DNA of 64,000 nt from Neobacillus piezotolerans (GTDB lineage Bacteria > Bacillota > Bacilli > Bacillales > Cytobacillaceae), in contig NZ_QNQT01000003.1 in assembly GCF_003362805.1 (NCBI RefSeq), positions 124,001 to 188,000 of the forward strand, read 5' to 3'. A program made the position numbers and the translations under genes. How positions within the stretch are numbered: position 1 is the first letter of the stretch; every line of letters begins with the position of its first letter. The notes under the pieces were generated by a model that had not been told where the DNA came from, made no database searches, and saw nothing but the letters and a program-made list of their open reading frames with translations. Below, piece after piece: positions 2,218-36,480 of the stretch.

Positions 2218-2835
2218 ATGCGAAAGAAACGCAGAAACATATGGAGATGGGTCATTATTTCAATACCCATCTTTTTTTTGTTGATTGGCGGAGGCATTGT
2301 CGCCTATTTCGGATTTGATTTGACAAAACAGACGGTCCTTTTGGCCCACACAGCCCTGAATGAGTATGAACCTGATTTGCCTGACAGGCAGTTCGAGCAG
2401 GTATGGCCTACCCTTCCTGCACCTGGGGATAAAATCGGCGATCTGAAGTTCCCTTCAGTCGGCCTGGATGTCCCGGTTGTACAGGGCACCCATGACAATG
2501 AACTGAAAAAAGGCGCTGGCCACCTCGCAGGAAGCGCTCTTCCAGGACAAGGGGGGAACGTTGTGCTGAGCGGCCATAGGGATACAGTTTTCAGGAAGCT
2601 GAAGGATTTAAAGGTGGGTGAGGAAGTCATATTCACGACCCCGTATGGTGACTTTATTTATGAAACAACCGATTTTAAAATCACCCATGCGGATGATATG
2701 ACAGTTGCCGTCCCGACCGATTTCGAGACGTTGACCTTGACGACCTGCTATCCGTTCTATTTCGTTGGAAACGCGCCGGACAGGTTCATCGTCTACACGA
2801 AGCTGGTCTCCCAGCCCGAAATAACCAAACATTGA
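2218..2835 (+). CDS. Class D sortase
   Basis: This membrane-anchored transpeptidase cleaves a C-terminal sorting motif and links the substrate to peptidoglycan. The N-terminus has a basic head and one transmembrane segment (about 9-30). The sortase fold carries the catalytic triad: His120 in SGHRDTVF, Cys177 in LTLTTCYPF and Arg189 in APDRF. The length of 205 residues is normal for class D. It directly follows the LPNTA protein, its obvious substrate, and ends at a strong terminator. Confidence 0.9.
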   Translation: MRKKRRNIWRWVIISIPIFFLLIGGGIVAYFGFDLTKQTVLLAHTALNEYEPDLPDRQFEQVWPTLPAPGDKIGDLKFPSVGLDVPVVQGTHDNELKKGAGHLAGSALPGQGGNVVLSGHRDTVFRKLKDLKVGEEVIFTTPYGDFIYETTDFKITHADDMTVAVPTDFETLTLTTCYPFYFVGNAPDRFIVYTKLVSQPEITKH

Positions 2836-3118: not shown

Positions 3119-3202
3119 ATTCGGGAACTGGCTGGCATGGCTATTTAAAATAGCTTTAGCCCCTTTAGTTTTGCGCCCCCACTTTTCAGTGGATTTGCCG
3201 TT
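3119..3202 (-). ncRNA. Cyclic di-GMP-I (GEMM-I) riboswitch
   Basis: Read on the minus strand, this segment has the conserved GEMM-I landmarks in order: ACGGCAAA, a CCACT-GAAA-AGTGG hairpin with its GNRA tetraloop, GGGCGCAAAACTA, GGGGCTAAAGC, a variable stem, GCCATGCCAGCC and the closing CCGA that pairs back to CGG. The family binds c-di-GMP. It is followed by a small hairpin (about 3102-3118) and then by the ribosome-binding site of a 55-codon ORF, so translational control is likely. The upstream promoter is weak or unclear; the best guess is TTGAAT-17-TAAGTT at about 3228-3256. Confidence 0.8.
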
Positions 3203-3383
3203 TCGTACAATTTTGTGCTATGCCCCTAACTTACCAAAAATCCGATTCAGATTCAATACATTTTCACCAAAAAAAGGCATCGTCCTATTGGTATATATAC
3301 AGGTAATATCCGTTTTATGTACTGCGATAAACGTGGGCGGCCGAAATTTTTTTCGTAGAAATGTGCCAATTGGTCAATGCAAA

Positions 3384-8607: not shown

Positions 8608-8650
8608 TAAAAAAGCCCTAAGAGGGACAAAAAATGTCCTTCTTAGGGGG
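8608..8650 (-). terminator. Terminator of the kinase/helicase cassette
   Basis: A 14-bp stem (CCCTAAGA/TCTTAGGG outer part, GGACA/TGTCC inner part) lies just beyond the last cassette gene, followed by CTTTTTTATT on the minus strand. Confidence 0.85.
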
Positions 8651-8668: not shown

Positions 8669-9898
8669 TTACCTTTCCCACGTTGTGGAAAAGGTTTGGT
8701 GGAGGTGGTCGTTTTGTTTTTGGATATAGGCATCGCTGTATTCATGTTTGTTATAGTAGGCCACATTTTGTCGCTTGAGAATGGCCAGCAGCTCGTTTAA
8801 GGTATTTTTATCCTCGAGGCGGAACGCCAGTATGGGGCCAAGCTGCTCATTCGCATGGAGCGGAAGTTCCCTTGTGTAAGTGAGGTGGCGAAGAATCCGG
8901 TTTTGAAATTCTGGTGACCCGCTCCATTTATCAATGTCTTCCGGCCTTATAGGATAAGCGATATTTCCTGTCGCGCCTATTTCCGCCCTGCCTATTTCCA
9001 AGTATTCCTCGAGTTTAAGCCCCAAGACGGAAAAAGACAATTGCTTCCCCTTGTTCAGTTGCTCCTCGGACTGGATCATCGCCCAAACTCTGACCAGATT
9101 ACTCTTAATTAGATGCTCAAAATACGGGGAACGTTTTCCGGTTGTGCCAATATATACTTCAATTTCAGCCCCGTCCCGGCCATTCACCCCTGTATCTGTT
9201 AAAAATCCGCCTGCTTCCCCATAGAAACAAATGAACAATGGAATGAACCGGATTTCGCCATTCAAACCTGGAGCATTGTCATTGAGTAATTGCCTATTAA
9301 TTTCGATTTCAATCATTTCCTGCGGCAAATTGAACGAATAGCGCTCGTTCCCGTTATAACGAAGCAATTCCTTAACAGGATTGTCCGCAAGGGTGCTCCA
9401 TAAATCGAAAACAAAACTCTTATTTAGCATATCCCTATTGTCAGCAGGCAAAATAACATTCGCGGGGTCCTCGTAAAATTCACGCGGCAGCGGCTGCAGG
9501 GCAATGGCATCAAAATAAAGAAGCCTCCTGGACTCCGCTTCATAAATCTTTTCCCGCTTTTCAAACGATTCTGCGCCATTCTTCAACACTTTGTAACGCC
9601 CTTCCGCATTCCTGATATGGCCAATCGATTCCAGGTGCGTGAGCGTTTCTGAAAGAATCCGCGACCCTCCCGGAAGGCCGAGCCTTACAGCTAGGTCTTC
9701 CTGTGTATGCACATTCCCTTCATGGAGAAAGCGGGTAATGAACCATTCCAGGCTTTCATAGGGTTCGCTCATCCGTTCTTTCAGGATGACAGGAAGGTTG
9801 TAGATTGGATAGTCAAGCTGGATCAGCCTGCGGAGCGGCCTCGGATTTTTTATGTTCCGCATAATCGAGAGCGGTGATTTTATACGAGCTGCCGCCAA
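8669..9898 (-). CDS. Unknown protein, last gene of NERD/kinase/helicase cassette
   Basis: This 409-residue protein belongs to no family I recognise. Residues about 45-110 look like a winged helix-turn-helix (helical, with TQEDLAVRLGLPGGSRILSETL then a basic wing), suggesting nucleic-acid or partner binding. The rest is mixed alpha/beta with no catalytic motif visible. There is no signal peptide or membrane segment. It starts at TTG behind GGAAGGTG and overlaps the helicase gene by 19 bp, so it is translationally coupled. Being locked to a helicase and two kinase-type proteins suggests it is the specificity or sensor component, but that is inference. Confidence 0.75.
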   Translation of the reverse strand: MAAARIKSPLSIMRNIKNPRPLRRLIQLDYPIYNLPVILKERMSEPYESLEWFITRFLHEGNVHTQEDLAVRLGLPGGSRILSETLTHLESIGHIRNAEGRYKVLKNGAESFEKREKIYEAESRRLLYFDAIALQPLPREFYEDPANVILPADNRDMLNKSFVFDLWSTLADNPVKELLRYNGNERYSFNLPQEMIEIEINRQLLNDNAPGLNGEIRFIPLFICFYGEAGGFLTDTGVNGRDGAEIEVYIGTTGKRSPYFEHLIKSNLVRVWAMIQSEEQLNKGKQLSFSVLGLKLEEYLEIGRAEIGATGNIAYPIRPEDIDKWSGSPEFQNRILRHLTYTRELPLHANEQLGPILAFRLEDKNTLNELLAILKRQNVAYYNKHEYSDAYIQKQNDHLHQTFSTTWER

Positions 9899-12702
9899 GG
9901 GGTTTCACCTTCCTTCAAAAGGAGTTTCGCATCTACATACTGGCCGTGTTTGCGGATATAGTGCCGGAGATTTTTAAATAAAGCGGCGGATCGCCTATCA
10001 TTCGCGTTCGCGAGCGTTTCCATATCCCCTATCAAAACGAGCAGCGATTTACAGCGGGTCATCGTTACATTCAGGCGCCGCAGCTCCCTGAGGAACCCGA
10101 TTTCAAAATCAGGGCTGCTCCTCGTAAAACTGAACAGGATGATTTCCTTCCCGCGACCTTGGAAGCTGTCGACCGTGTCGATTTCAACCCCGGAAACGAT
10201 ATCACGGATATCCTCCGGGGAAAACCCAGCCTCCTTTAGCATGGATGGCAAATGGCCCTCGATGATCAACTTCTGTTTTTTATAAGGGGCCACTATGCCG
10301 ATTTCCCCTGGCTTCCGGCCATATTTCAGGATTTTTATTAGTTCCTGGACTGCAAGGTACGCCTCAAGCTGATTAAAATAGACGAGATGGTCCTCATCCG
10401 GAATGCACTGCTGGAACCGTTCATCACAGCGGGCGGTATCAATGAAGACGAGCGGAGATTCATACAGATTCCACTCAATCGTCCGCTGCTCCGGAGTAAC
10501 CCCGGATTTGTACTCCCCTTTGTAAAATTCATCGGATATGAACGAAGCCACAAGCGGATGCATCCTGAATTGCGTATCGAGCATGACCTTATGCGAATCT
10601 GGCGCATTGTAATAAAGCTCTTCAAACAGGCTTTTCTCAATCCATTCGCTTGGCAATTCCATTTCCCTGAATTCTTTTGCGAGATTGGAGTCGGAGACCG
10701 GCGGCAGCTGCATATGGTCGCCAATCAGGATGACCTTTTTCGCCCTCGCCATAGGCACGAGCACATCAAATATTGTAATCTGGCCTGATTCATCAATTAT
10801 TACTGTATCAAACTCGGTATCCCTGAATTCCGGGGACGTGTCGATTCCGATGCAAGTAGCCCCCAGGACCGGTACTGTTCTTAGGAGCAAAGGATAAAGC
10901 GACTGCTGCCTCTCCTGGAGTTCATCAATCCAATCAGCCGAAATCGATGTTTGCTTTTGAAAAGTGGCCACATTGTTGGCCGCAGTTTGCTGTAACCGAA
11001 GCCACTGTTCTTCTTCCGCAAGCCCGGGGACCTTTTCGGGTTCGAGGTAACCTTCCAATTTCACCTTAAGCATCACAAGGTACGCGCTTTCCTGCTTTTC
11101 TTCCCCGGCAAGCTTTCCAAGCAGCTCCTGATAAACCCGATTACCGGAAAGAGCCGCTTTTAGTTTCGATACAGCTTTCGAATGGATGCTGTCAGTATTT
11201 ATTTTTAAAAAAGGCAGAAGTTCCTGCGTTTTCCTGAGTGCGGCTAATGGCCCGAATAAATGCAGCAGCTTCCACTTCGCCTTTCTTTCCAACTTCCGAA
11301 GGTCTTCCCGGGATTCCGCTGCCTGGCGGTGAACCGCCTGAAAACGGCTGACATCGGCGGACACTGCCTGAAGCAGGCGGTTGAACTCCTCGGCGCGGGT
11401 GCGTTCCGACTGAAGGTGTTTCTGGTCTTCCGCACAGCGGCTGATCATATTTTCCTGAAGCTTTACGGCGACCCGGTCAAGGAGGACATCCTTTACCTTG
11501 GCAACCTTCACCTTCTCCTCGCGGCCAATCCGGACGCAATCAATGCCATCCTCAATTAATTGCTCAAGCACATTGTCAACGGCAAGATTGTTCTTCGAGC
11601 TGATTAACACCCGCTCCCCTTTTCCAATCAGGCGGCGGACCATTTCGACAATGATGGTCGTTTTTCCTGTCCCGGGAGGCCCCTGGACGAGGAGGAAATC
11701 ATTTGTCGCGGCCGCCTTTTCTACCGCCTCCTCCTGCTTTGGCAATAACTCGGCCGCTTTCCGTTGTTCGGCGGCTGGCGCGTGATAGCTTTCAAACTCC
11801 TTATGGACAAGATAGTTCAATAGCTTTTCATTCACACTCTGCCCATCGATAAGTTCCTGGACAGTCCTTTTTTGGACACGGTAGGTTGTATTGTTTGGGA
11901 CAACGAGCAAGTAACCCTTCTCAGGAATTTTCCCGTAATCAACGCTGTGTGCAAACGACAGAATCGTTTCATTTTCATCCGAACGCGTCACCTTCCCGAC
12001 AATCAGCCCCTCATACGTCAGCGGGAACGGCTCAGGGGAAATGGCCAAGTCATTGTAGGCATATTTGTCGTCGATAACTACTTTAAAAGAATAAGACACG
12101 CCTTTTATCTGTGAGGAAATCGCTTCTGTAAACCGGCTGTAGTAGAAATACTTCTTTTTCGTTTCAGCGAAATCGGTATCTTCCTGCTTATTGACCATCT
12201 GAATCAGTTGGGAAGCCCATTCCTCTTCGGCCTGCTTTCGCCGCCTTTTTTCGGAATGATCCTCGCGGGATTCCTGCTGGAGCTGGCCGAACTTGAGCGA
12301 GAGTTTGTGAAGGTCGGCAAACACGAAAGCGGCTTGCCTGTTTTTTTGCATATTGAAGTTTTCCCCTGAAAATACAAAGGGCTGTTCCAGCAAAATAAGC
12401 CTGATTCCGTAGCGGACCATCCGGGTGCGATCCGCAGCGTTGCGCTTTTTAACCCCATTGACCCTGAATGCGGCATTGCCATGGGATGGGCTGTCATATT
12501 TTTTGCACAGAAGCTTGTGATCCTTCGTATGGAGCTGAACGTTTTCCTCGCCGCGGAATTCCGCCCACAGCCATTCACTTTCCTTTATTTGCTTGATGAT
12601 TAGGGGAACATTCCCCGCTTCATTCGCGGAAACCTGGAAATTAATCACCCCTGCCGCCTGTATCGTCCTGCCTGAAAGTGTATCCCCGATTATGCCGCTC
12701 AT
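9880..12702 (-). CDS. UPF1/Dna2-like superfamily 1 helicase (COG1112 type)
   Basis: This 940-residue cytoplasmic ATPase has a full set of SF1B motifs: Walker A GPPGTGKTT (341-349), SSKNNLAVD (Ia), IIDESGQ (636-641), GDHMQLPP (661-668), LDTQFRMHP (708-716), DTVDSFQGRGKE (842-852) and NVTMTRCK (878-885). About 330 N-terminal residues precede the motor; they have no recognisable domain and may bind partners or RNA. A coiled, charged insertion (about 415-600) splits motifs Ia and II, as the stalk and 1B domains do in UPF1. It overlaps the upstream kinase gene by ATGA and the downstream gene by 19 bp. COG1112 helicases paired with kinases occur in the Mokosh anti-phage system, a useful comparison. 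Confidence 0.88.
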   Translation of the reverse strand: MSGIIGDTLSGRTIQAAGVINFQVSANEAGNVPLIIKQIKESEWLWAEFRGEENVQLHTKDHKLLCKKYDSPSHGNAAFRVNGVKKRNAADRTRMVRYGIRLILLEQPFVFSGENFNMQKNRQAAFVFADLHKLSLKFGQLQQESREDHSEKRRRKQAEEEWASQLIQMVNKQEDTDFAETKKKYFYYSRFTEAISSQIKGVSYSFKVVIDDKYAYNDLAISPEPFPLTYEGLIVGKVTRSDENETILSFAHSVDYGKIPEKGYLLVVPNNTTYRVQKRTVQELIDGQSVNEKLLNYLVHKEFESYHAPAAEQRKAAELLPKQEEAVEKAAATNDFLLVQGPPGTGKTTIIVEMVRRLIGKGERVLISSKNNLAVDNVLEQLIEDGIDCVRIGREEKVKVAKVKDVLLDRVAVKLQENMISRCAEDQKHLQSERTRAEEFNRLLQAVSADVSRFQAVHRQAAESREDLRKLERKAKWKLLHLFGPLAALRKTQELLPFLKINTDSIHSKAVSKLKAALSGNRVYQELLGKLAGEEKQESAYLVMLKVKLEGYLEPEKVPGLAEEEQWLRLQQTAANNVATFQKQTSISADWIDELQERQQSLYPLLLRTVPVLGATCIGIDTSPEFRDTEFDTVIIDESGQITIFDVLVPMARAKKVILIGDHMQLPPVSDSNLAKEFREMELPSEWIEKSLFEELYYNAPDSHKVMLDTQFRMHPLVASFISDEFYKGEYKSGVTPEQRTIEWNLYESPLVFIDTARCDERFQQCIPDEDHLVYFNQLEAYLAVQELIKILKYGRKPGEIGIVAPYKKQKLIIEGHLPSMLKEAGFSPEDIRDIVSGVEIDTVDSFQGRGKEIILFSFTRSSPDFEIGFLRELRRLNVTMTRCKSLLVLIGDMETLANANDRRSAALFKNLRHYIRKHGQYVDAKLLLKEGETPWRQLV

Positions 12703-13529
12703 ATTTCCATCACCACTCTTTCAAGCCTTCTTGCGACCTCAAGCATTGACTTCGGCCGTTTTTCCGGAAAAAATTGCATGCAATCAGCCATCAGCTCCTT
12801 CAGGCCAATCGTGACATCGGGTGGTTCAGGAAATTCAAGGATGACAGTCCCTTTTTGCAAAATTTCCCCTTTTTCAAACGGGCGTTTCCGGTAAACCAAT
12901 AAGTAGAGCAGGACGCCGAATGAAAAAATATCATAGGCTGGGGAAGGCCTGTGGTGAAGTGTGGTAGCTTCCGGCGGCGGAAAGACATCAGTTCCCGCCT
13001 TTATCAGCACACCAACGCGTTGGAAGGATAGGCCAAAGTCGATGATTTTGACGTTTCCTTCTTCATCCACAAAGATATTATTGTCCGACAAATCCCGGTG
13101 GATAATCCCGAGTCGGTGGATGCCGCTGTACGCCTTGGCGATATTCGCGGCAATTTTGATCCGCTGTCCGAGTGTGGCCTCATCCGAAAAAATGAGCTCG
13201 CTCACGGAGGAGCCGCCTGCTTTTTCCATCGCGAAAACGACTTCGAATTCGTCGATGAAGAATTCCCTTATTTTCGCCGTGCAATCAAGCTGGAGGAGAT
13301 TCCGCATAATCCGGATTTCTTCCTGAAACATATTTTCAATGGCGATCTTTTTCTTACTGTTTTTCATATCGGCAGGGTCGATCAGGAAAATCTGTTTGAT
13401 GACGACTTCCTCTCCTGTTTGGCGGTGTTTTCCGAACGACAGGGACGACTCGTAAAACTCGGTTTCTTTCTCTGTGCCGGGGATTGGATCTAAAATATCA
13501 TACCTGTCGTAGAAGTTTGGATTGAACAT
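12699..13529 (-). CDS. Ser/Thr protein kinase (intact) of the cassette
   Basis: This is a Hanks-type kinase of about 276 residues that fills the whole protein. The ATP lysine is in VVIKQIF, the catalytic loop is HRDLSDNN, the metal site is the canonical DFG of KIIDFGLS, and PPPEA stands in for APE. All residues needed for catalysis are present. No transmembrane or extracellular PASTA region exists, so it is cytosolic and unlike PrkC. The ATG at 13529 is preceded by GGGGGC and overlaps the stop of the NERD-kinase gene (TAATG). It likely phosphorylates another cassette member. Compare the degenerate kinase next door. Confidence 0.88.
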   Translation of the reverse strand: MFNPNFYDRYDILDPIPGTEKETEFYESSLSFGKHRQTGEEVVIKQIFLIDPADMKNSKKKIAIENMFQEEIRIMRNLLQLDCTAKIREFFIDEFEVVFAMEKAGGSSVSELIFSDEATLGQRIKIAANIAKAYSGIHRLGIIHRDLSDNNIFVDEEGNVKIIDFGLSFQRVGVLIKAGTDVFPPPEATTLHHRPSPAYDIFSFGVLLYLLVYRKRPFEKGEILQKGTVILEFPEPPDVTIGLKELMADCMQFFPEKRPKSMLEVARRLERVVMEI

Positions 13530-14899
13530 TATAGCCCCCAAAGATCCTCTAAAAATTCCCACCCGAAATCCCGGTCTTTTTGGCTGATGCTGATCAGGCT
13601 TTCCACCGCAAAGGCAAACTCTTCGGATACGCCCGGAACAAGCTTGTCGAGCGTGTCGTGCTTCAGGTCGATGTCGGATTTATACGGATACTTGCCCGAC
13701 AGGAACTCATAGGCGATAATCCCAAACGAGTAAAAGTCGGTATGGAAGTCGATATCCGCCTTTCGTTCCTCAACATTTGTTTCCGGCGCAGCATAGGCAT
13801 TTTTTTCATCAAAAGGGATCCCTGCTCCGACGGTCGGCTCGCCCACAATACGCGAGTAATCGAAATTGATGATTTTTAGTTTCTTGTCATCTGTATAAAG
13901 GATATTCCGCGGCGTTAAATCACGGTGGAAAACTCCCTGGCTGTGGATCGATCGAAGCGCTTTGAACAATTCCTTTAGGAGGTCCATTTTTTCATCGAGC
14001 GGACGGGCTTTTTTTATCATGGTAAAGAATGATGTATGGCCGACCCACTGGGTTGTTGAGCAAATGTAATCGCCATAAGTGAATGGGCTCGCGTGATAGT
14101 AAAGGACATAAGGGTTGTCCCTGAGCTTTGCCCGGACTTTCGTATCCCGTTTTGTGATGGTCAGAAACAGCTCCTGATCTTCCTTAAGGAGCGCGGGGTT
14201 GATTTCATGGACCTTCAGGAAATACTTTTGGTCAAATTCGTCGACCGCTTCATACACTTTGTAATTGGATTGTTCAAACAGCAGGCGCTTCGTCACATAG
14301 CCGTCTACATCGATATTGAGCGATTGCCCGGTAAATTTCACCTCGCGAATGCCCAACGACTCGTACACGATCGTGATGTCATTCGGCGTTAATTCCGGCT
14401 GGCCCTCCATCCAGACCTTCGAAATTGTATCGAGATGGTGGATGACTTCATTCGTCCCGCCCTGGTCAATTTCGTATGTAAGTTCGTTCCTTGGGCTTGT
14501 AAATAAAATAACGGGACGGACCGATACCCGTTTTCCCAAGCGCCTTTGCGCCTTCCGATTGACAAATGAATGTAGTGTCCGCGACTGTGATGCGGCCTGG
14601 ATGATCGGATTATCAATCGTTTTCTGCTCACCTGTTATGGTTCTTGTCACAAGCTTTGTGCTCATATTGCTGATCGGGGTAATAATCGTTCCCCGATACG
14701 ACTTCATTTCTATGTTAAAAATTCCTTTCGGGCAAATCAGGATAACATCCATTTCCTGATCCTTTATGTATCCATCCTTCGGAACGAGGGCGCCGACAAT
14801 GATTATATGGTTTTCCCGCGGCAGTTTCTTTTTCAGCTCCTGGATGGCGCGCTTCTCATTCTCTTTTGGAACTCCGCCAAAAACAACTTTTGATTCCAT
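13529..14899 (-). CDS. NERD-domain protein fused to a degenerate kinase domain
   Basis: Residues about 15-130 form a NERD (nuclease-related) domain: QEMDVILICPKGIFNIEMKS carries the D...ExK signature of restriction-like endonuclease folds. Residues about 205-456 form a protein-kinase fold with FLKVH (lysine), HRDLTPRN (catalytic loop) and YAAPE, but the DFG motif is NFD (KIINFDYS). The metal-binding Asp is therefore Asn, which suggests a pseudokinase or weak kinase. It starts at ATG 14899 behind GGAGG. It is the first gene of the cassette and overlaps the next kinase by one base. A nuclease controlled by a kinase module is the natural reading of the fusion. Confidence 0.85.
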   Translation of the reverse strand: MESKVVFGGVPKENEKRAIQELKKKLPRENHIIIVGALVPKDGYIKDQEMDVILICPKGIFNIEMKSYRGTIITPISNMSTKLVTRTITGEQKTIDNPIIQAASQSRTLHSFVNRKAQRRLGKRVSVRPVILFTSPRNELTYEIDQGGTNEVIHHLDTISKVWMEGQPELTPNDITIVYESLGIREVKFTGQSLNIDVDGYVTKRLLFEQSNYKVYEAVDEFDQKYFLKVHEINPALLKEDQELFLTITKRDTKVRAKLRDNPYVLYYHASPFTYGDYICSTTQWVGHTSFFTMIKKARPLDEKMDLLKELFKALRSIHSQGVFHRDLTPRNILYTDDKKLKIINFDYSRIVGEPTVGAGIPFDEKNAYAAPETNVEERKADIDFHTDFYSFGIIAYEFLSGKYPYKSDIDLKHDTLDKLVPGVSEEFAFAVESLISISQKDRDFGWEFLEDLWGL

Positions 14900-15271
14900 T
14901 CTCAACCCTCCAAACACTTAACTATATATTTCCTATTTCGACAATTACCACCAAATTTCCTTTATTTTCTTGAAAGTAAGATCATCTTTTCATTAAGGGG
15001 AATCGGCTTGAGGGGAGAATAAACCAAGCAGTTATAAAGGTCGGTAAAATGTGCTTTATTCCTAAAAATGTTTAAATAATAATATAAGAGGAAAAACATT
15101 CCATAATTTACAACCTGCCCTTTGATGAACCATAAAAATACACCCCAAAAGCTAGATTTCACTCTAACTTTTGGGGTGCAGTACAATTCAAATATGAATT
15201 TGTAAGCTTTTTAAGATGGTTTTACTTTTCCTCATGCCTGTGGGTACTCCCTTTTCCCCGCGGTTTCTCCA
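14900..15271. other. Intergenic region upstream of the kinase/helicase cassette
   Basis: It contains the presumed cassette promoter near 14905-14960 (AT-rich, no clear consensus), an IS-end-like inverted repeat at 15141-15178 and the tail of the ugd unit. No gene is seen. Confidence 0.4.
15141..15178. repeat. Near-perfect inverted repeat resembling joined IS ends
   Basis: CACCCCAAAAGCTAGA and TCTAACTTTTGGGGTG are inverted copies (one mismatch) around a 6-nt loop. The arms resemble the terminal repeats of some IS3-family elements (CACCCCAAAAGTTAGA). No transposase and no T-tract is present, so a MITE-like relic is more likely than a terminator. Confidence 0.5.
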
Positions 15272-16854: not shown

Positions 16855-16954
16855 CTTCTTATCAAGAGAGGTTGAGGGACTGGCCCTATGACACCTCGGC
16901 AGCGGACTTTTTGTCTATGCCAATTCCAGCAAGCGATGCTTGATAGATGAGAAG
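16855..16954 (+). ncRNA. SAM-I (S-box) riboswitch, first copy
   Basis: The conserved S-box core is present: AGAGAGGTTGAGGGACTGG, CCCTATGACACCTCGGCA, CCAATTCCAGCAAGC and a closing P1 stem (CTTCTTATC with GATGAGAAG). It binds S-adenosylmethionine and is followed by its own terminator at 16976-17006, so SAM should cause premature termination. Confidence 0.95.
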
Positions 16955-17033: not shown

Positions 17034-17139
17034 TTCTTATCGAGAGAGGTTGAGGGACTGGCCCTACGACGCCTCGGCAGCGGACTCCGTTTGGAGCTCT
17101 GTGCCAATTCCAGCAAGCGAGAGCTTGGGAGATAAGAAG
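17034..17139 (+). ncRNA. SAM-I (S-box) riboswitch, second copy in tandem
   Basis: A second complete S-box has AGAGAGGTTGAGGGACTGG, CCCTACGACGCCTCGGCA and CCAATTCCAGCAAGC, with P1 formed by TTCTTATC and GATAAGAA. It begins about 80 nt after the first aptamer. P3 and P4 differ in sequence from copy one, so it is an old duplication rather than an assembly duplicate. Confidence 0.95.
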
Positions 17140-25929: not shown

Positions 25930-26505
25930 TTATATTTTGTTATAGTCATTATCTATTGGAATGGTACTTTTCTTTAAGTTTTCTATATGATCTATTATGT
26001 ATTTCTCAGATTCAAATGCCATATCTGGCATCTCCCCATCCAGACAATACCATTTTAAGTCCTTTAAATCATCATTTGGTTTCATATCTCCTGATGTTAC
26101 TTTAGCTAATATCACGATTACAATTGTATGTAAGCTAGGTGATATGAAATTTGTAACTACATTAAGTATAGAACTGATTTCTATATTGAGATTGGTCTCT
26201 TCTTTTACCTCACGATGTGCAGCTGTAAGGAAATCTTCATTGATTTCAATGAATCCTCCTGGTAAGCCCCATTTGTTATACCCATATCTCCCACTTCGTT
26301 GACCGAGTAATACCTTGTTATCTTTCTCGATAAATACGACCACAGCAGGAGATGGATTTCGATAGAAAACATAACCACATTCAATACATTTCAATGAATT
26401 TTTAGTATTATATTTTGTTCCGCAACAAGGGCAGAATTTAAATTTAGTAATCTCGCTATGTATCTCTAGATGAGGATAATAAGAAAAAACTTGTTTTATA
26501 TCCAA
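25930..26505 (-). CDS. Nudix hydrolase with N-terminal zinc ribbon
   Basis: This 191-residue hydrolase of nucleoside diphosphate-linked compounds has a zinc ribbon, FCPCCGTKY and KCIECGYVFY (residues about 24-47), followed by the Nudix box GGFIEINEDFLTAAHREVKEET (about 80-102) with all required Glu and Arg residues. The layout resembles NudC-type and ADP-ribose pyrophosphatases. It is AT-rich, like the rest of this island. Confidence 0.88.
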   Translation of the reverse strand: MDIKQVFSYYPHLEIHSEITKFKFCPCCGTKYNTKNSLKCIECGYVFYRNPSPAVVVFIEKDNKVLLGQRSGRYGYNKWGLPGGFIEINEDFLTAAHREVKEETNLNIEISSILNVVTNFISPSLHTIVIVILAKVTSGDMKPNDDLKDLKWYCLDGEMPDMAFESEKYIIDHIENLKKSTIPIDNDYNKI

Positions 26506-26810
26506 ATAATCACCTCTAAGAAACTCATAAATTTATCTCAATTGAAAAACCTTACTTCCCTTTAAAAGTAATACTAATTTTAAATTCTTCATTTAAAATA
26601 TATATCCTTTTTTTCAACGTAATGCCATGTTTGTGGAACAAGAAAAATAACAACAGTGGTAATCTAGGAATTAATCTTTCGTTCCAAGGTTGCTGCTGTT
26701 TCTAATTTTGGGTCATAAAAGACAGGTTGAATAACGATATAATTTGTAAAAAAGCCAATTACTTTTTTTATTTCCGTACTTTTTTCTTTACTTTTTTATT
26801 ATTGTTTTAT
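26506..26810. other. AT-rich intergenic region between divergent genes
   Basis: This is the promoter region for the Nudix gene (minus) and the Rrf2 gene (plus). Apart from the dyad described separately, nothing distinctive is seen. Confidence 0.4.
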
Positions 26811-26855
26811 AAAATCAGATAAACAAGATAATCATTATCCTGTTTATCTGATTTT
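26811..26855 (+). promoter_or_regulatory. 45-bp dyad with embedded Fur-box-like core
   Basis: Outer arms AAAATCAGATAAACA and TGTTTATCTGATTTT are exact inverted copies. The centre GATAAT-C-ATTATC (26827-26839) matches the Fur 7-1-7 consensus TGATAATNATTATCA at 12 of 14 positions. GATAAT may also serve as the -10. It lies 15 bp before the Rrf2 coding region. Confidence 0.6.
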
Positions 26856-26870
26856 ATTCATTATAGAAAA

Positions 26871-27344
26871 GTGGTGATTATTATACAAATTAAAAATGGA
26901 TTCGAACAAAGTGTATATGCCATTTGTTTACTTAGTATGTTACCTGCTAAGTCCGTTTTACCAGGCGAAGCAATAAGTAACCAGATTGGAGCTTCACCTA
27001 CTTATTTTAAAAAAATATTAAGGAAGCTTGCAGATTCTGATCTAATTACTTCAGTTCCTGGTAAAAAAGGGGGATTTAAACTAAAAAAGACCCCTAGTGA
27101 AATAAGGATATATGATATTTTCCTAGCAATTGAGGGACAGCAAGCATTGTACTATTCCAATAATGTTTTAGGTGAAATGGTTCATAAGAAGGACAAAGAA
27201 GCATGTGTGCTAAGTGACTTAATGGAAAGAGCGGAAACTTCTTGGATAACAGTCTTAAAAAGTGAGACTATATCCTCTCTATTTACAGAGTTGCATAAAG
27301 AAAAAGAATTGCAAAATTGGGTAAATCAAAATTTAGTCCAATAA
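26871..27344 (+). CDS. Rrf2-family transcriptional regulator
   Basis: This regulator of about 155 residues has a winged helix: ISNQIGASPTYFKKILRKLADSDLITSVPGKKGGFKL is the Rrf2 recognition region. It lacks the three clustered cysteines of NsrR and IscR (only a single Cys in EACVLSD), so it probably does not bind an Fe-S cluster. The start is uncertain: the GTGGTG at 26871-26876 looks like part of the ribosome-binding site (AAAGTGGTGATT), and family proteins usually begin at the MQIKNG position, which here reads ATA or ATT. It lies 40 bp before a nitroreductase gene that it probably controls. Confidence 0.85.
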   Translation: MVIIIQIKNGFEQSVYAICLLSMLPAKSVLPGEAISNQIGASPTYFKKILRKLADSDLITSVPGKKGGFKLKKTPSEIRIYDIFLAIEGQQALYYSNNVLGEMVHKKDKEACVLSDLMERAETSWITVLKSETISSLFTELHKEKELQNWVNQNLVQ

Positions 27345-27384
27345 ACCAACAACCAGAATTAACCATAGAATGGAGAAAATAATC

Positions 27385-28050
27385 ATGAATACAGATCTAG
27401 TAAAAGAACAAGTAATTAATGCTTTACAGTTTAGACATGCAACTAAACATTTCGATAACAGCAAAAAAATTTCAGAAGAGGATTTTAACTATATACTTGA
27501 AGCGGGAAGGTTATCTCCAAGCTCATTAGGTTTTGAACCCTGGAAATTTTTAATTGTGCAAAATCCTGAAATAAGGGAACGACTAAAAGAAGTTTCTTTG
27601 GGTGCTGTAAGTCAACTTGATACCGCAAGTCATTTTATAATTATACTAAGTCGTACAGATGTTAGATATGACTCTGAATATATTTTTGAACATATGAAAA
27701 ACGTTCAAAAGATGCCAGATGAAATTATGGAGTTTGTATCTAATGCTCTAAAAGATACGCAAGAAGCCCGTGAAACCATAAACAACGAACGAGCATTATA
27801 CGATTGGTCTTCTAAACAAAGTTATATTGCTATGGCTAACATGATGACATCTGCTGCTCTTATTGGAATAGATTCCTGTCCAATGGAAGGCTTTAATTAT
27901 GATGAAGTGGAAAATATCCTAAAAGAAGAAAATTTAATAAAAGGTGAAAATTGGAAGCCATCGGTAATGGTAGCTTTTGGCTATAGAAAGGAAGATCCAA
28001 AACGCGCTAAAACTAGAAGAAATTTAAATGATATTATAGAATTTGTATAA
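27385..28050 (+). CDS. NAD(P)H-dependent nitroreductase family protein
   Basis: This FMN-dependent oxidoreductase of about 221 residues is NfsB/YfkO-like. FRHATKHFD (FMN phosphate contact), AGRLSPSSLGFEPWKF, and GIDSCPMEGF with the final PSVMVAFGYR are hallmark motifs. Likely substrates are quinones or nitroaromatics. ATG 27385 follows ATGGAGAAAATAATC. It sits downstream of the Rrf2 gene, suggesting induction by redox or electrophile stress. Confidence 0.9.
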   Translation: MNTDLVKEQVINALQFRHATKHFDNSKKISEEDFNYILEAGRLSPSSLGFEPWKFLIVQNPEIRERLKEVSLGAVSQLDTASHFIIILSRTDVRYDSEYIFEHMKNVQKMPDEIMEFVSNALKDTQEARETINNERALYDWSSKQSYIAMANMMTSAALIGIDSCPMEGFNYDEVENILKEENLIKGENWKPSVMVAFGYRKEDPKRAKTRRNLNDIIEFV

Positions 28051-28075
28051 AGAATCAATATAAAAAGATAGCTAA

Positions 28076-28121
28076 AGATTAAGGTAACTCCCTTTTGGTG
28101 TTACCTTAATCTTATTTTTTT
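28076..28121 (+). terminator. Terminator of Rrf2/nitroreductase operon
   Basis: A 13-bp stem (AGATTAAGGTAAC/GTTACCTTAATCT) followed by TATTTTTTT. Confidence 0.92.
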
Positions 28122-28290
28122 ATAAATAATCAGTTTTTTTCTATATCTTCCGTTGCAATCACTGCATGTAGCTTTATTACACAATTTGAAAAATAGATCG
28201 GTTTTCTGTTTGAGTAAATATCAATTTTTTATAATAAAGTTTGACCATTTTTTATTAAACTAAAGCCCCCGTTTGTTGAATAAGAAAACT

Positions 28291-28776
28291 TTATTTTTTT
28301 ACAATCGGTATATAAATATCAAAATGCGGATCATTCACATCACGATCAACTGGATAATGTTCATGTTTAATCGGCATATAAGGATCATAGTAATCTATAC
28401 CAGCTTCTCTAAATGCGGTATAGTCACTATCAAATAACCATTGATGTAAATCCGTATAGGTCTTTTGTATATCTTCTCCTTTATTATGTGTCGTCTTTAC
28501 ATACGTCCATTCAGGAACCCATTTTTCAATCATCCCATCAGGAATTTCCTGCTCCTCATTCACTTCATACACTGCATAATGTGCGAATCCATTCTCAATT
28601 ACATGATAAGATAGACCTAATTGAACATTAGGATTCACCTTATTCTCTAACTCATCGGCACGGTCTTCAACTTGTTGAATGACGTTTTTTAAATTCGGTA
28701 CAATTTCAGAGAATGTTCCCTCCCATTTTAATCCTACTGTCCGATAGGCCGGTAACGTTATAATTTCATAACTCAA
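28291..28776 (-). CDS. GyrI-like / AraC effector-binding domain protein
   Basis: This 161-residue stand-alone small-molecule-binding domain begins YEIITLPAYRTVGLKWEGTF and contains GLSYHVIENGFAHYAVYEV and a C-terminal HFDIYIPI, the typical SOUL/GyrI-like pattern. No DNA-binding part exists. Such proteins sequester drugs or ligands, or hydrolyse some of them. It is AT-rich and monocistronic. Confidence 0.85.
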   Translation of the reverse strand: MSYEIITLPAYRTVGLKWEGTFSEIVPNLKNVIQQVEDRADELENKVNPNVQLGLSYHVIENGFAHYAVYEVNEEQEIPDGMIEKWVPEWTYVKTTHNKGEDIQKTYTDLHQWLFDSDYTAFREAGIDYYDPYMPIKHEHYPVDRDVNDPHFDIYIPIVKK

Positions 28777-29036
28777 TTTATTCCCTCCCTTTCTCCTAGC
28801 GTCATAAATTCCTTTTTAACAGTTTTCGCTATCTATGGGTAAATTACCTTCTTTCACTAAACTGCCCCGGTAGTTAAAGAAGAAAAAGATATTGCTGGCA
28901 TCCCAAGTGACATTGAAATTGTCAGTTATTATGGCACTACATTTTAAACTTACAATACTTATTGTCCATTATAAATTTTAATGTCAATTGCTATATCAAA
29001 ACGATGAAATAAGTTAAAAACCTTAATAAATATGAA
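28777..29036. other. Intergenic region with a possible gene remnant
   Basis: An open stretch at 28873-28947 (+) reads VKEEKDIAGIPSDIEIVSYYGTTF then stop. It has no start or ribosome-binding site and looks like the tail of a lost gene. The rest is AT-rich non-coding sequence. Confidence 0.35.
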
Positions 29037-35089: not shown

Positions 35090-35136
35090 TATAGATAGGA
35101 AAAACCTTCCTATTCTGCAGGAAAGGCGTGAACAAA

Positions 35137-36480
35137 ATGGCTAAAAAGAAACCCGTCAAGGTATTGCGTAAACGAAAGAAAACCGAAACCATTCAACGGT
35201 TCACTCAAAAACAGAATATCGGACGGACGAGTCTTACTGCCAGGGAATTCCGTCTCCTTCGACGAATGTCGCATAGTTCCAAAGCGTTGCGTAATGTGGG
35301 CTTGTATACGATGAAACAAAGTTATTTGACAAACAATAGAATGGCCACCGTGAAAGAAGTAGATGCTGCCATGCGAGCTGATGTGAATTATTGGGGGGTT
35401 CAATCGAACTCCGTCCAGGCTATTCGAAGGACTTTGCATGCAGAAGTAAAAAGTTTTTTCGAGGCGTTGAAAAAGTGGAAGGAAAACCCTGAGAAATTCA
35501 CTGGCCGCCCTAAATTTCCGAACTACTCCCCCTCCACCGAAAAGCGTGTGATCGAAATCTATCAGGTCCCTAAGGTGGATGAAAACGGGTATTGGGCGAT
35601 TCCGATGAACAATGAATTCAGAAAACGTTTCTGTTCGATCAAGATTCGTATGCCAAAAAACCTGTTACACAAGAAAATCTCCTACATTGAAATTGTGCCA
35701 AAGCAAAAAGGTCGGTTCTTTGAGGTGCATTACACGTATGAAGTGCAAATCGCTCAAATGAAAAGACAACCAACGACCACTGTACGTGCTTTGAGTTGCG
35801 ATTTAGGTGTAGACCGATTATTGAGTTGTGCAACAAATAACGGTGATACGTTTTTGGTTGATGGCAAAAAGTTGAAGTCAATTAATCAATATTTCAACAA
35901 GACGATAAGCAATCTCCAGCAGAAGAATAGGGAGAACGGTATTTCAAAACGTATTGTAACCAATAAAATAGCAAAACTTTGGAACGATCGTGAAGCTCAA
36001 ATCAATGGTTATTTCTCACAAACTGTCGGCTTGTTGTTCAAAAAAGTGAAGGACTTTAACATTGATACCATTGTTGTAGGTTATAACACGGGCTGGAAAC
36101 AAGAGTGCGACATGGGAAAAAAGAATAATCAACAGTTTGTCCAAATCCCCTTTCAGAAACTCATATCCGCCATTGAAAATAAATGCTTAAAAGAAGGCAT
36201 CCTTTTCAAAAGACAAGAAGAAAGCTATACCTCAAAAGCTAGTTTCCTGGATAGGGACAGTATGCCTGTTTGGTCAAAAAAAGATAAAACAACGTATCTC
36301 TTTAGTGGCAAAAGGGTATCACGCGGTTTGTACCAAAGCAAATCTGGAAGAGGCATTCACGCTGATATTAACGGGGCTTTAAATACGTTGCGTAAATCGG
36401 AAGTTGTCCAATTAGACGACAATATTAAAGTGAAAACACCTATTCTATTAAATGTTCAAAAACGTAAGGCTGTTGCCTAG
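35137..36480 (+). mobile_element. Stand-alone TnpB (IS200/IS605-like, RNA-guided nuclease family)
   Basis: This TnpB protein of about 447 residues has no tnpA beside it. RuvC-I Asp225 lies in CDLGVDRLL and RuvC-III Asp413 in HADINGALN. The usual RuvC-II Glu is not in TIVVGYNTGW (Gly318 there). Glu364 and Glu365 in EESYTSKASF may take its place, as in TnpB clades with rearranged catalytic sites. The C-terminal zinc ribbon cysteines of classical TnpB are absent. ATG 35137 is preferred over GTG 35128 from AGGAAAGG spacing. It sits between the haem-copper operon and its haem synthase gene, so it is an insertion. Confidence 0.85.

Follow-up and report, generated by a model that had tools for sequence, protein, structure and literature searches.

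A rare, conserved four-gene cassette with a PglW-like NERD-kinase head is related to the Mokosh defence systems

Analysis of a 64,000-nucleotide stretch of the Neobacillus piezotolerans genome (hereinafter, the window) revealed a cassette of four overlapping genes that encode, in this order, a NERD nuclease-like domain joined to a pseudokinase (NK), a separate Ser/Thr kinase (K), a UPF1-like SF1 helicase (H) and a protein with an MkoB-like N-terminal winged helix-turn-helix (wHTH) region (X). The NK-K-H-X arrangement is a real conserved unit, and a rare one, and no description of it was found in a search of open-licence PMC papers. Judging from sequence comparison, the cassette is a Mokosh-related variant that carries a PglW-like NERD-kinase head. 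Given the homologies of its proteins and one copy that is adjacent to BREX genes, the cassette probably functions in defence; the more specific proposition, that its four proteins make up an anti-invader system akin to Mokosh yet separate from it, appears to us about evenly balanced.

Organization of the cassette

All four genes are located on the minus strand. The first gene, NK (13529-14899), encodes 456 aa from an ATG at 14899 that is preceded by GGAGGG; the mechanically defined open reading frame starts with GTG at 14917 and comprises 462 aa. It is followed by K (12699-13529; mechanical frame from GTG 13562), H (9880-12702; 940 aa) and X (8669-9898; 409 aa). The overlaps amount to 1 bp between NK and K, where the K ATG overlaps the NK stop codon, 4 bp between K and H, and 19 bp between H and X, and the operon ends with an intrinsic terminator, a hairpin followed by T6 (8610-8648), in agreement with the original prediction of four genes that overlap by 1 to 19 bp and share one terminator. 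When folded against shuffled sequences, this hairpin had a z score of -3.7, with none of the 200 shuffles equally good; a simple consensus scan, in which promoter-like and terminator-like sites were no commoner than in shuffles, did not list it. The dN/dS values are in the range of 0.04-0.17 across all four genes (0.04-0.05 for NK), so all four evolve under purifying selection, and these values, along with the synteny described below, rule out chance open reading frames.

Just upstream of the cassette, there is a perfect 18-bp hairpin with a T-run (15139-15180, minus strand; z -7.3) that is probably the terminator of a UDP-glucose dehydrogenase-like gene; one arm of this hairpin, with at most one mismatch allowed, occurs only once in the genome.

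The NERD-pseudokinase and the active kinase

The NK protein matches the NERD (7.5e-15) and Pkinase (1.7e-22) families of Pfam, with the NERD domain at aa 19-140 (14498-14863) and the pseudokinase domain at aa 221-424 (13646-14257) of the 462-aa frame, both on the minus strand, and the DFG motif reads NFD, as had been proposed from the sequence. The NERD residues E21, D57 and E70-x-K72 are retained in all six cassette loci that we identified, being invariant in an alignment of five NK proteins, with the fragment from the sixth genome, G703, read separately. The Azospirillum NK has no NERD match by Pfam, and the domain was recognized there through the alignment together with a match to PglW; this protein (L080 5294-7345) additionally possesses an extra N-terminal part with a weak, below cut-off likeness to SpoIIE phosphatases (0.0026). 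In the kinase portion, the aspartate of DFG is lost in all six loci, the motif reading GFE in Azospirillum and NFD in the other five; four of the six retain HRD, with HRA in its place in the congener G003 and HRG in Azospirillum; Lys235 is kept in all five aligned proteins. Thus, by its sequence motifs, NK combines a NERD domain that retains the catalytic residues with a kinase fold that lacks the metal-binding aspartate, and the changes in DFG and HRD suggest that catalysis by the kinase fold is probably lost. The fold model of NK was unsuccessful, with a pLDDT of 29.

K (Pfam Pkinase, 5.9e-31) is indeed the separate kinase that had been expected to retain HRD and DFG, and both motifs are intact not only in the window but in all six cassettes. 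The NK and K proteins both end with kinase folds. The suggestion that one of the two kinases is a decoy fared less well: 'decoy' is no better supported than 'scaffold' because a NERD domain accompanied by an inactive and an active kinase has been published for PglW and for some DndF proteins.

The helicase, the X protein and the relationship with Mokosh

H contains AAA_11 (3.4e-43) and AAA_12 (1.1e-47) domains, is similar to yeast UPF1 (NAM7; 8.3e-46) and matches TIGR00376, the model of IGHMBP2-type helicases, at 1.6e-85, below the curated cut-off. The Walker A and DE motifs are kept in six aligned helicases, including that of a second locus of genome G529, L075, which is discussed below. The original call of a full SF1B helicase of the COG1112 type is borne out by Pfam and NAM7 to the extent of a UPF1-like SF1 helicase, COG1112 being the label used in that call.

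The window X was described originally as an unknown protein with a wHTH. It is, indeed, without a match in Pfam, PADLOC and NCBIfam at E values up to 1. In the predicted structure, aa 37-132 (9503-9790, minus strand) or thereabouts model as a winged helix, in a poor model and a fold search that was limited to wHTH, and most of the chain beyond aa 117 has no resolved fold; the wHTH label therefore fits this part of X and not the rest.

By sequence similarity, Mokosh is the nearest known system, given that H is related to MkoA and that distant X proteins match the N-terminal part of MkoB, the outcome of the comparison with Mokosh models that the original prediction had proposed. The best PADLOC matches of H are MkoA models (PDLC03920, 395 bits, aa 50-919). 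The MkoB N-terminus is matched by the X proteins of G529 (7.6e-10) and Azospirillum (9.2e-8); the window X alone has no MkoB match in PADLOC, and when profiles of six X proteins and 11 MkoB proteins were compared, they matched with 96% probability (E 4.4e-9), the match being confined to aa 26-138. The cassette shares with Mokosh type I the MkoA-type helicase, the Ser/Thr kinase and the MkoB-type N-terminal wHTH, as well as the kinase-helicase-MkoB gene order.

Mokosh type I reportedly consists of MkoA and of MkoB with a PLD, following Millman and coworkers in 2022; loci annotated as a kinase or AAA protein plus a PLD protein are seen among the Mokosh-like loci. Against this background, the cassette differs from Mokosh in detail, as originally anticipated. 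In all six cassette loci, the kinase is a separate gene, whereas it is fused to the helicase in the ten MkoA proteins compared, each of which has one fused kinase stretch and no NERD match; the gene for NK is an addition to the Mokosh type I gene set; and the HxKx4D motif of the PLD, judged by motif and not by structure, is present in 10 of 11 MkoB proteins, compared with none of the seven X-type proteins. Within the Mokosh set, there are a few exceptions, namely, MkoA of L096 without DFG, MkoA of L090 without the HRD pattern, and MkoB of L096 without the PLD motif. In an unrooted helicase tree of 20 rows, in which two long branches (Azospirillum and L075) are joined, the six cassette-type helicases group together (100/99), apart from the ten MkoA, which form a clade of their own (94/95, just under the support that the tool marks with a star); MkoA of L093 was left out, the L093 MkoB being a near-copy of that of L084. 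In sequence terms, then, the cassette departs from Mokosh in three tested features: kinase fusion, the PLD motif and placement of the helicase within the MkoA clade.

These differences bear on the possibility that the cassette is a diverged Mokosh type I, with MkoA split, X in the role of MkoB with a nuclease C-terminus that escapes recognition, and NERD as an accessory. The strong MkoA matches of H speak for such an origin, and so does the PADLOC model PDLC03921 (1607 positions), which matches both NK (model positions 11-420) and H (927-1597), suggesting that a fused NERD-kinase-helicase form has already been filed as MkoA. Furthermore, one review lists NERD (and PLD) under Mokosh type I in a table (PMC10952713). 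Nevertheless, the separate helicase clades, the consistent lack of the PLD motif and the lack of NERD in the ten MkoA compared, each with a single kinase stretch, render this derivation unlikely, even if it deserves serious weight.

Distribution and genomic context of the cassette

The exact NK-K-H-X order recurs in six loci, namely, the window, two congeners (G002 and G003), two further genomes, G703 and G529 (the latter of the same phylum as the window), and a megaplasmid of Azospirillum; in five of these, the genes are contiguous. Three of the eight genomes of the genus carry the cassette (N. piezotolerans itself, designated G000, G002 and G003), near metNIQ, and its absence from the other five rules out a core housekeeping locus. 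The cassette adjoins metN directly in G003 and is separated from it by one gene in the window and by two in G002. Identity to the window proteins in these congeners is 92-93% for NK, 81-85% for K, 81-87% for H and 73-78% for X, with 97% for MetI; that NK, the proposed effector, is conserved more strongly (90-93%) than the other three proteins counts against the anti-invader reading. In G001, a lacI-like gene adjoins metN with no cassette in between, and in G004-G007, other genes are found upstream of metN. The site thus varies in gene content across G000-G007, the contents including formamidase, a three-AAA protein and sugar transporters.

In wider samples, X turned up in 3 of 61 relatives and in 1 of 299 genomes of the order (that of N. 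piezotolerans), two overlapping samples. A profile search detected X in 3 of 398 genomes of the phylum, N. piezotolerans included, again in a sample that overlaps the former two, and an NK profile (E up to 1e-30) matched 4 of 378, namely, G000, G529, G703 and G573. All three phylum genomes in which X was detected (E up to 0.001) thus also belong to the four NK-positive ones, and they hold the genes in cassette order. Hence neither of the outcomes named originally as refuting, a core locus in all close relatives or genes scattered over most genomes, was observed. The G573 match, a protein of 1331 aa in which two stretches resemble kinases, seems to be PglW-like and is outside the cassette type. 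In G529, which belongs to a class represented by three genomes only, the four genes are contiguous and overlapping, at 30-36% identity to the window. In G703, the cassette is split over three contigs: one contig carries the end of NK and then K and H in the expected succession, X opens another, and NK appears at two contig ends in slightly different versions.

A search of plasmids with H produced matches in 230 of 72,556 records, none spanning more than 80% of the length of H. The best of these is on AZO_p1 of Azospirillum lipoferum 4B, which carries NK, K, H and X one after another, with a fifth gene overlapping X. Plasmid searches with the window X or the G529 X retrieved nothing, and the Azospirillum X matched only itself. 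Six of 50,697 phage records match H, all partially, and narrow-pattern scans of IMG/VR with X, H and NK yielded no relatives.

Clear defence genes adjoin one of the six loci only, that of Azospirillum, where genes for BrxL (3.1e-125), PglZ (9.5e-252) and an AbiU-like protein (3.8e-39) come after the cassette on the opposite strand. The gene after X in G703 encodes a helicase that matches ZorD/DpdE models. Around the copies in the window, G002 and G529, none of the scanned neighbours was recognized as a defence gene, the scans being partial (the window by Pfam; three genes in G002; in G529, at L088, four genes by PADLOC and three by Pfam). The window copy lies outside any recognized defence island. 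A 'defence hotspot' at metN was considered and rejected, there being no clearly defensive gene among those scanned; the 1216-aa AAA protein of G004 has IetA as its best PADLOC match, seemingly a similarity common to AAA proteins in general.

This distribution can be weighed against the reading of the cassette as a host operon without a defence role, in which phosphorylation would regulate stress response, DNA repair or RNA surveillance. The window, G002 and G003 copies occupy one stable chromosomal place common to three species, evolve under strong purifying selection and carry no arms-race signal (dN/dS up to 0.17), and H matches the eukaryotic UPF1; both UPF1 and IGHMBP2 have roles in RNA or DNA metabolism. 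However, the cassette is missing from five of eight congeners, the same site included, and from nearly all sampled genomes; NERD, kinases of this kind, MkoA and MkoB are recurrent components of defence systems; and the Azospirillum copy has BREX and AbiU surroundings. Accordingly, we regard a host operon as distinctly improbable.

Several other features of the window were observed. Upstream of metN, there are two complete tandem SAM (S-box) riboswitches (16856-16953 and 17034-17138, plus strand; 82 and 83 bits). A c-di-GMP-I riboswitch (3120-3209, minus strand; 74.9 bits) has no minus-strand open reading frame of at least 120 aa just downstream, the next being at 941-1357, and a sortase gene (2218-2835, plus strand) lies nearby. 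The GC content is 0.31-0.33 at 26001-29000, a region with genes for an Rrf2 regulator and a nitroreductase, versus 0.41 and 0.49 in the flanking kilobases. A gene of the OrfB_IS605 (TnpB-type) family (35128-36480, plus strand) is located about 20 kb from the cassette.

A possible mechanism of action

Returning to the anti-invader reading, for which the patchy presence of the cassette at a variable site also counts, a signalling chain can be envisaged. H and X would jointly serve as the sensor, with the helicase engaging invader RNA or single-stranded DNA and X contributing nucleic-acid docking. Such engagement could activate K, which would phosphorylate NK or the complex; the pseudokinase would act as a phosphorylation-sensitive latch that releases the NERD nuclease, and the latter would then cleave nucleic acid of the invader or, abortively, of the host. 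NERD would thereby assume the effector role ascribed to the PLD in Mokosh, and the contrast between X-type and MkoB proteins in the PLD motif, together with the NERD residues kept in every locus, fits such an effector swap. With regard to Mokosh itself, a 2026 review places it among the systems of unknown mechanism (PMC12926258), and another paper states that it degrades viral transcripts (PMC11291487). In the cassette, the predicted sensor, the active kinase, the inactive kinase and the putative nuclease would reside in separate, deletable genes, so that the chain could be dissected gene by gene.

Comparison with PglW, DndF and MADS, and a NERD-less relative

According to PMC12839542, PglW and a subset of DndF proteins contain NERD followed by an inactive and then an active kinase, a layout that also appears in PMC10853773. 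The cassette has the same components, split over two adjacent genes, and the PglW model matches NK at 4.6e-21. The continuations differ: in the cassette, the UPF1-like helicase and X come next, whereas PglW continues with wHTH/iSTAND and DndF with a P-loop kinase. The K677A substitution in PglW abolished both phage resistance and autophosphorylation (PMC4365076). By analogy, this is the best precedent for expecting that K is needed, and it is silent on NERD.

The PglW likeness, and the BrxL and PglZ genes next to the Azospirillum copy, could also mean that the cassette is a BREX/Pgl accessory, in which NK and K, like the two parts of a divided PglW, pass a signal to a restriction system encoded elsewhere. 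We hold this to be very unlikely because, in the partial scans, no BREX gene is found among the neighbours in the window and G529 (none of PglX, PglZ and BrxC was seen among the window genes scanned), and because PglW has a wHTH and iSTAND tail of its own (PMC12839542) in the place where the cassette has H and X. A nuclease encoded in one operon with the kinases that would control it, together with the description of Pgl as partly a toxin/antitoxin system (PMC4365076), could point to a conflict module of the toxin-antitoxin kind, with the kinase pair governing a nuclease that attacks its own host and the locus being stabilized as a result; we find this hardly credible.

Large helicases and wHTH parts are unusual for toxin-antitoxin modules, which counts against that last reading; the anti-invader reading can instead be set beside two further relatives. 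MAD6 of the MADS system is the best NCBIfam match of NK, spanning NERD and the kinase (aa 12-449; 1.3e-48), at 166 bits against an equivalog cut-off of 460, so that NK is not a MAD6; the sole MADS match of H is mad8 (aa 326-509; 4.5e-9). The second G529 locus (L075 5007-12641, minus strand) appears to be a NERD-less version of the cassette, consisting of a pseudokinase (HRA, NFE and no VAIK lysine), a kinase (HRD, DFN), a helicase in the cassette clade and an X-type protein with an MkoB-like N-terminus. Where the cassette has NERD, L075 has a weak, below cut-off match to DUF4145 (0.00064), and its X-type protein, 733 aa in length, ends with five hydrophobic segments. The fifth gene of Azospirillum (L080 12475-13746) matches CorA in PADLOC (3.8e-7), has no Pfam match and encodes two hydrophobic segments. 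Together, these two loci suggest an exchangeable output part on a fixed chassis.

Extending this line of thought, the cassette may belong to an unnamed, distinct type of defence in which the MkoB-type wHTH adaptor, the UPF1-like helicase and the kinase pair make up the chassis, the killing part is swapped, and the conserved pseudokinase is the switch between sensing and effector action; we put this forward tentatively, as a possibility that falls clearly short of an even chance. The swapped parts would be the PLD that Mokosh carries on MkoB, the NERD domain joined to the pseudokinase in the cassette, a membrane-inserting tail of the X-type protein in the second G529 locus and, possibly, the CorA-like protein in Azospirillum. 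The cassette would, moreover, offer a test of whether nucleases are generally switched by phosphorylation through the combination of NERD with an inactive and an active kinase that is known from PglW and DndF.
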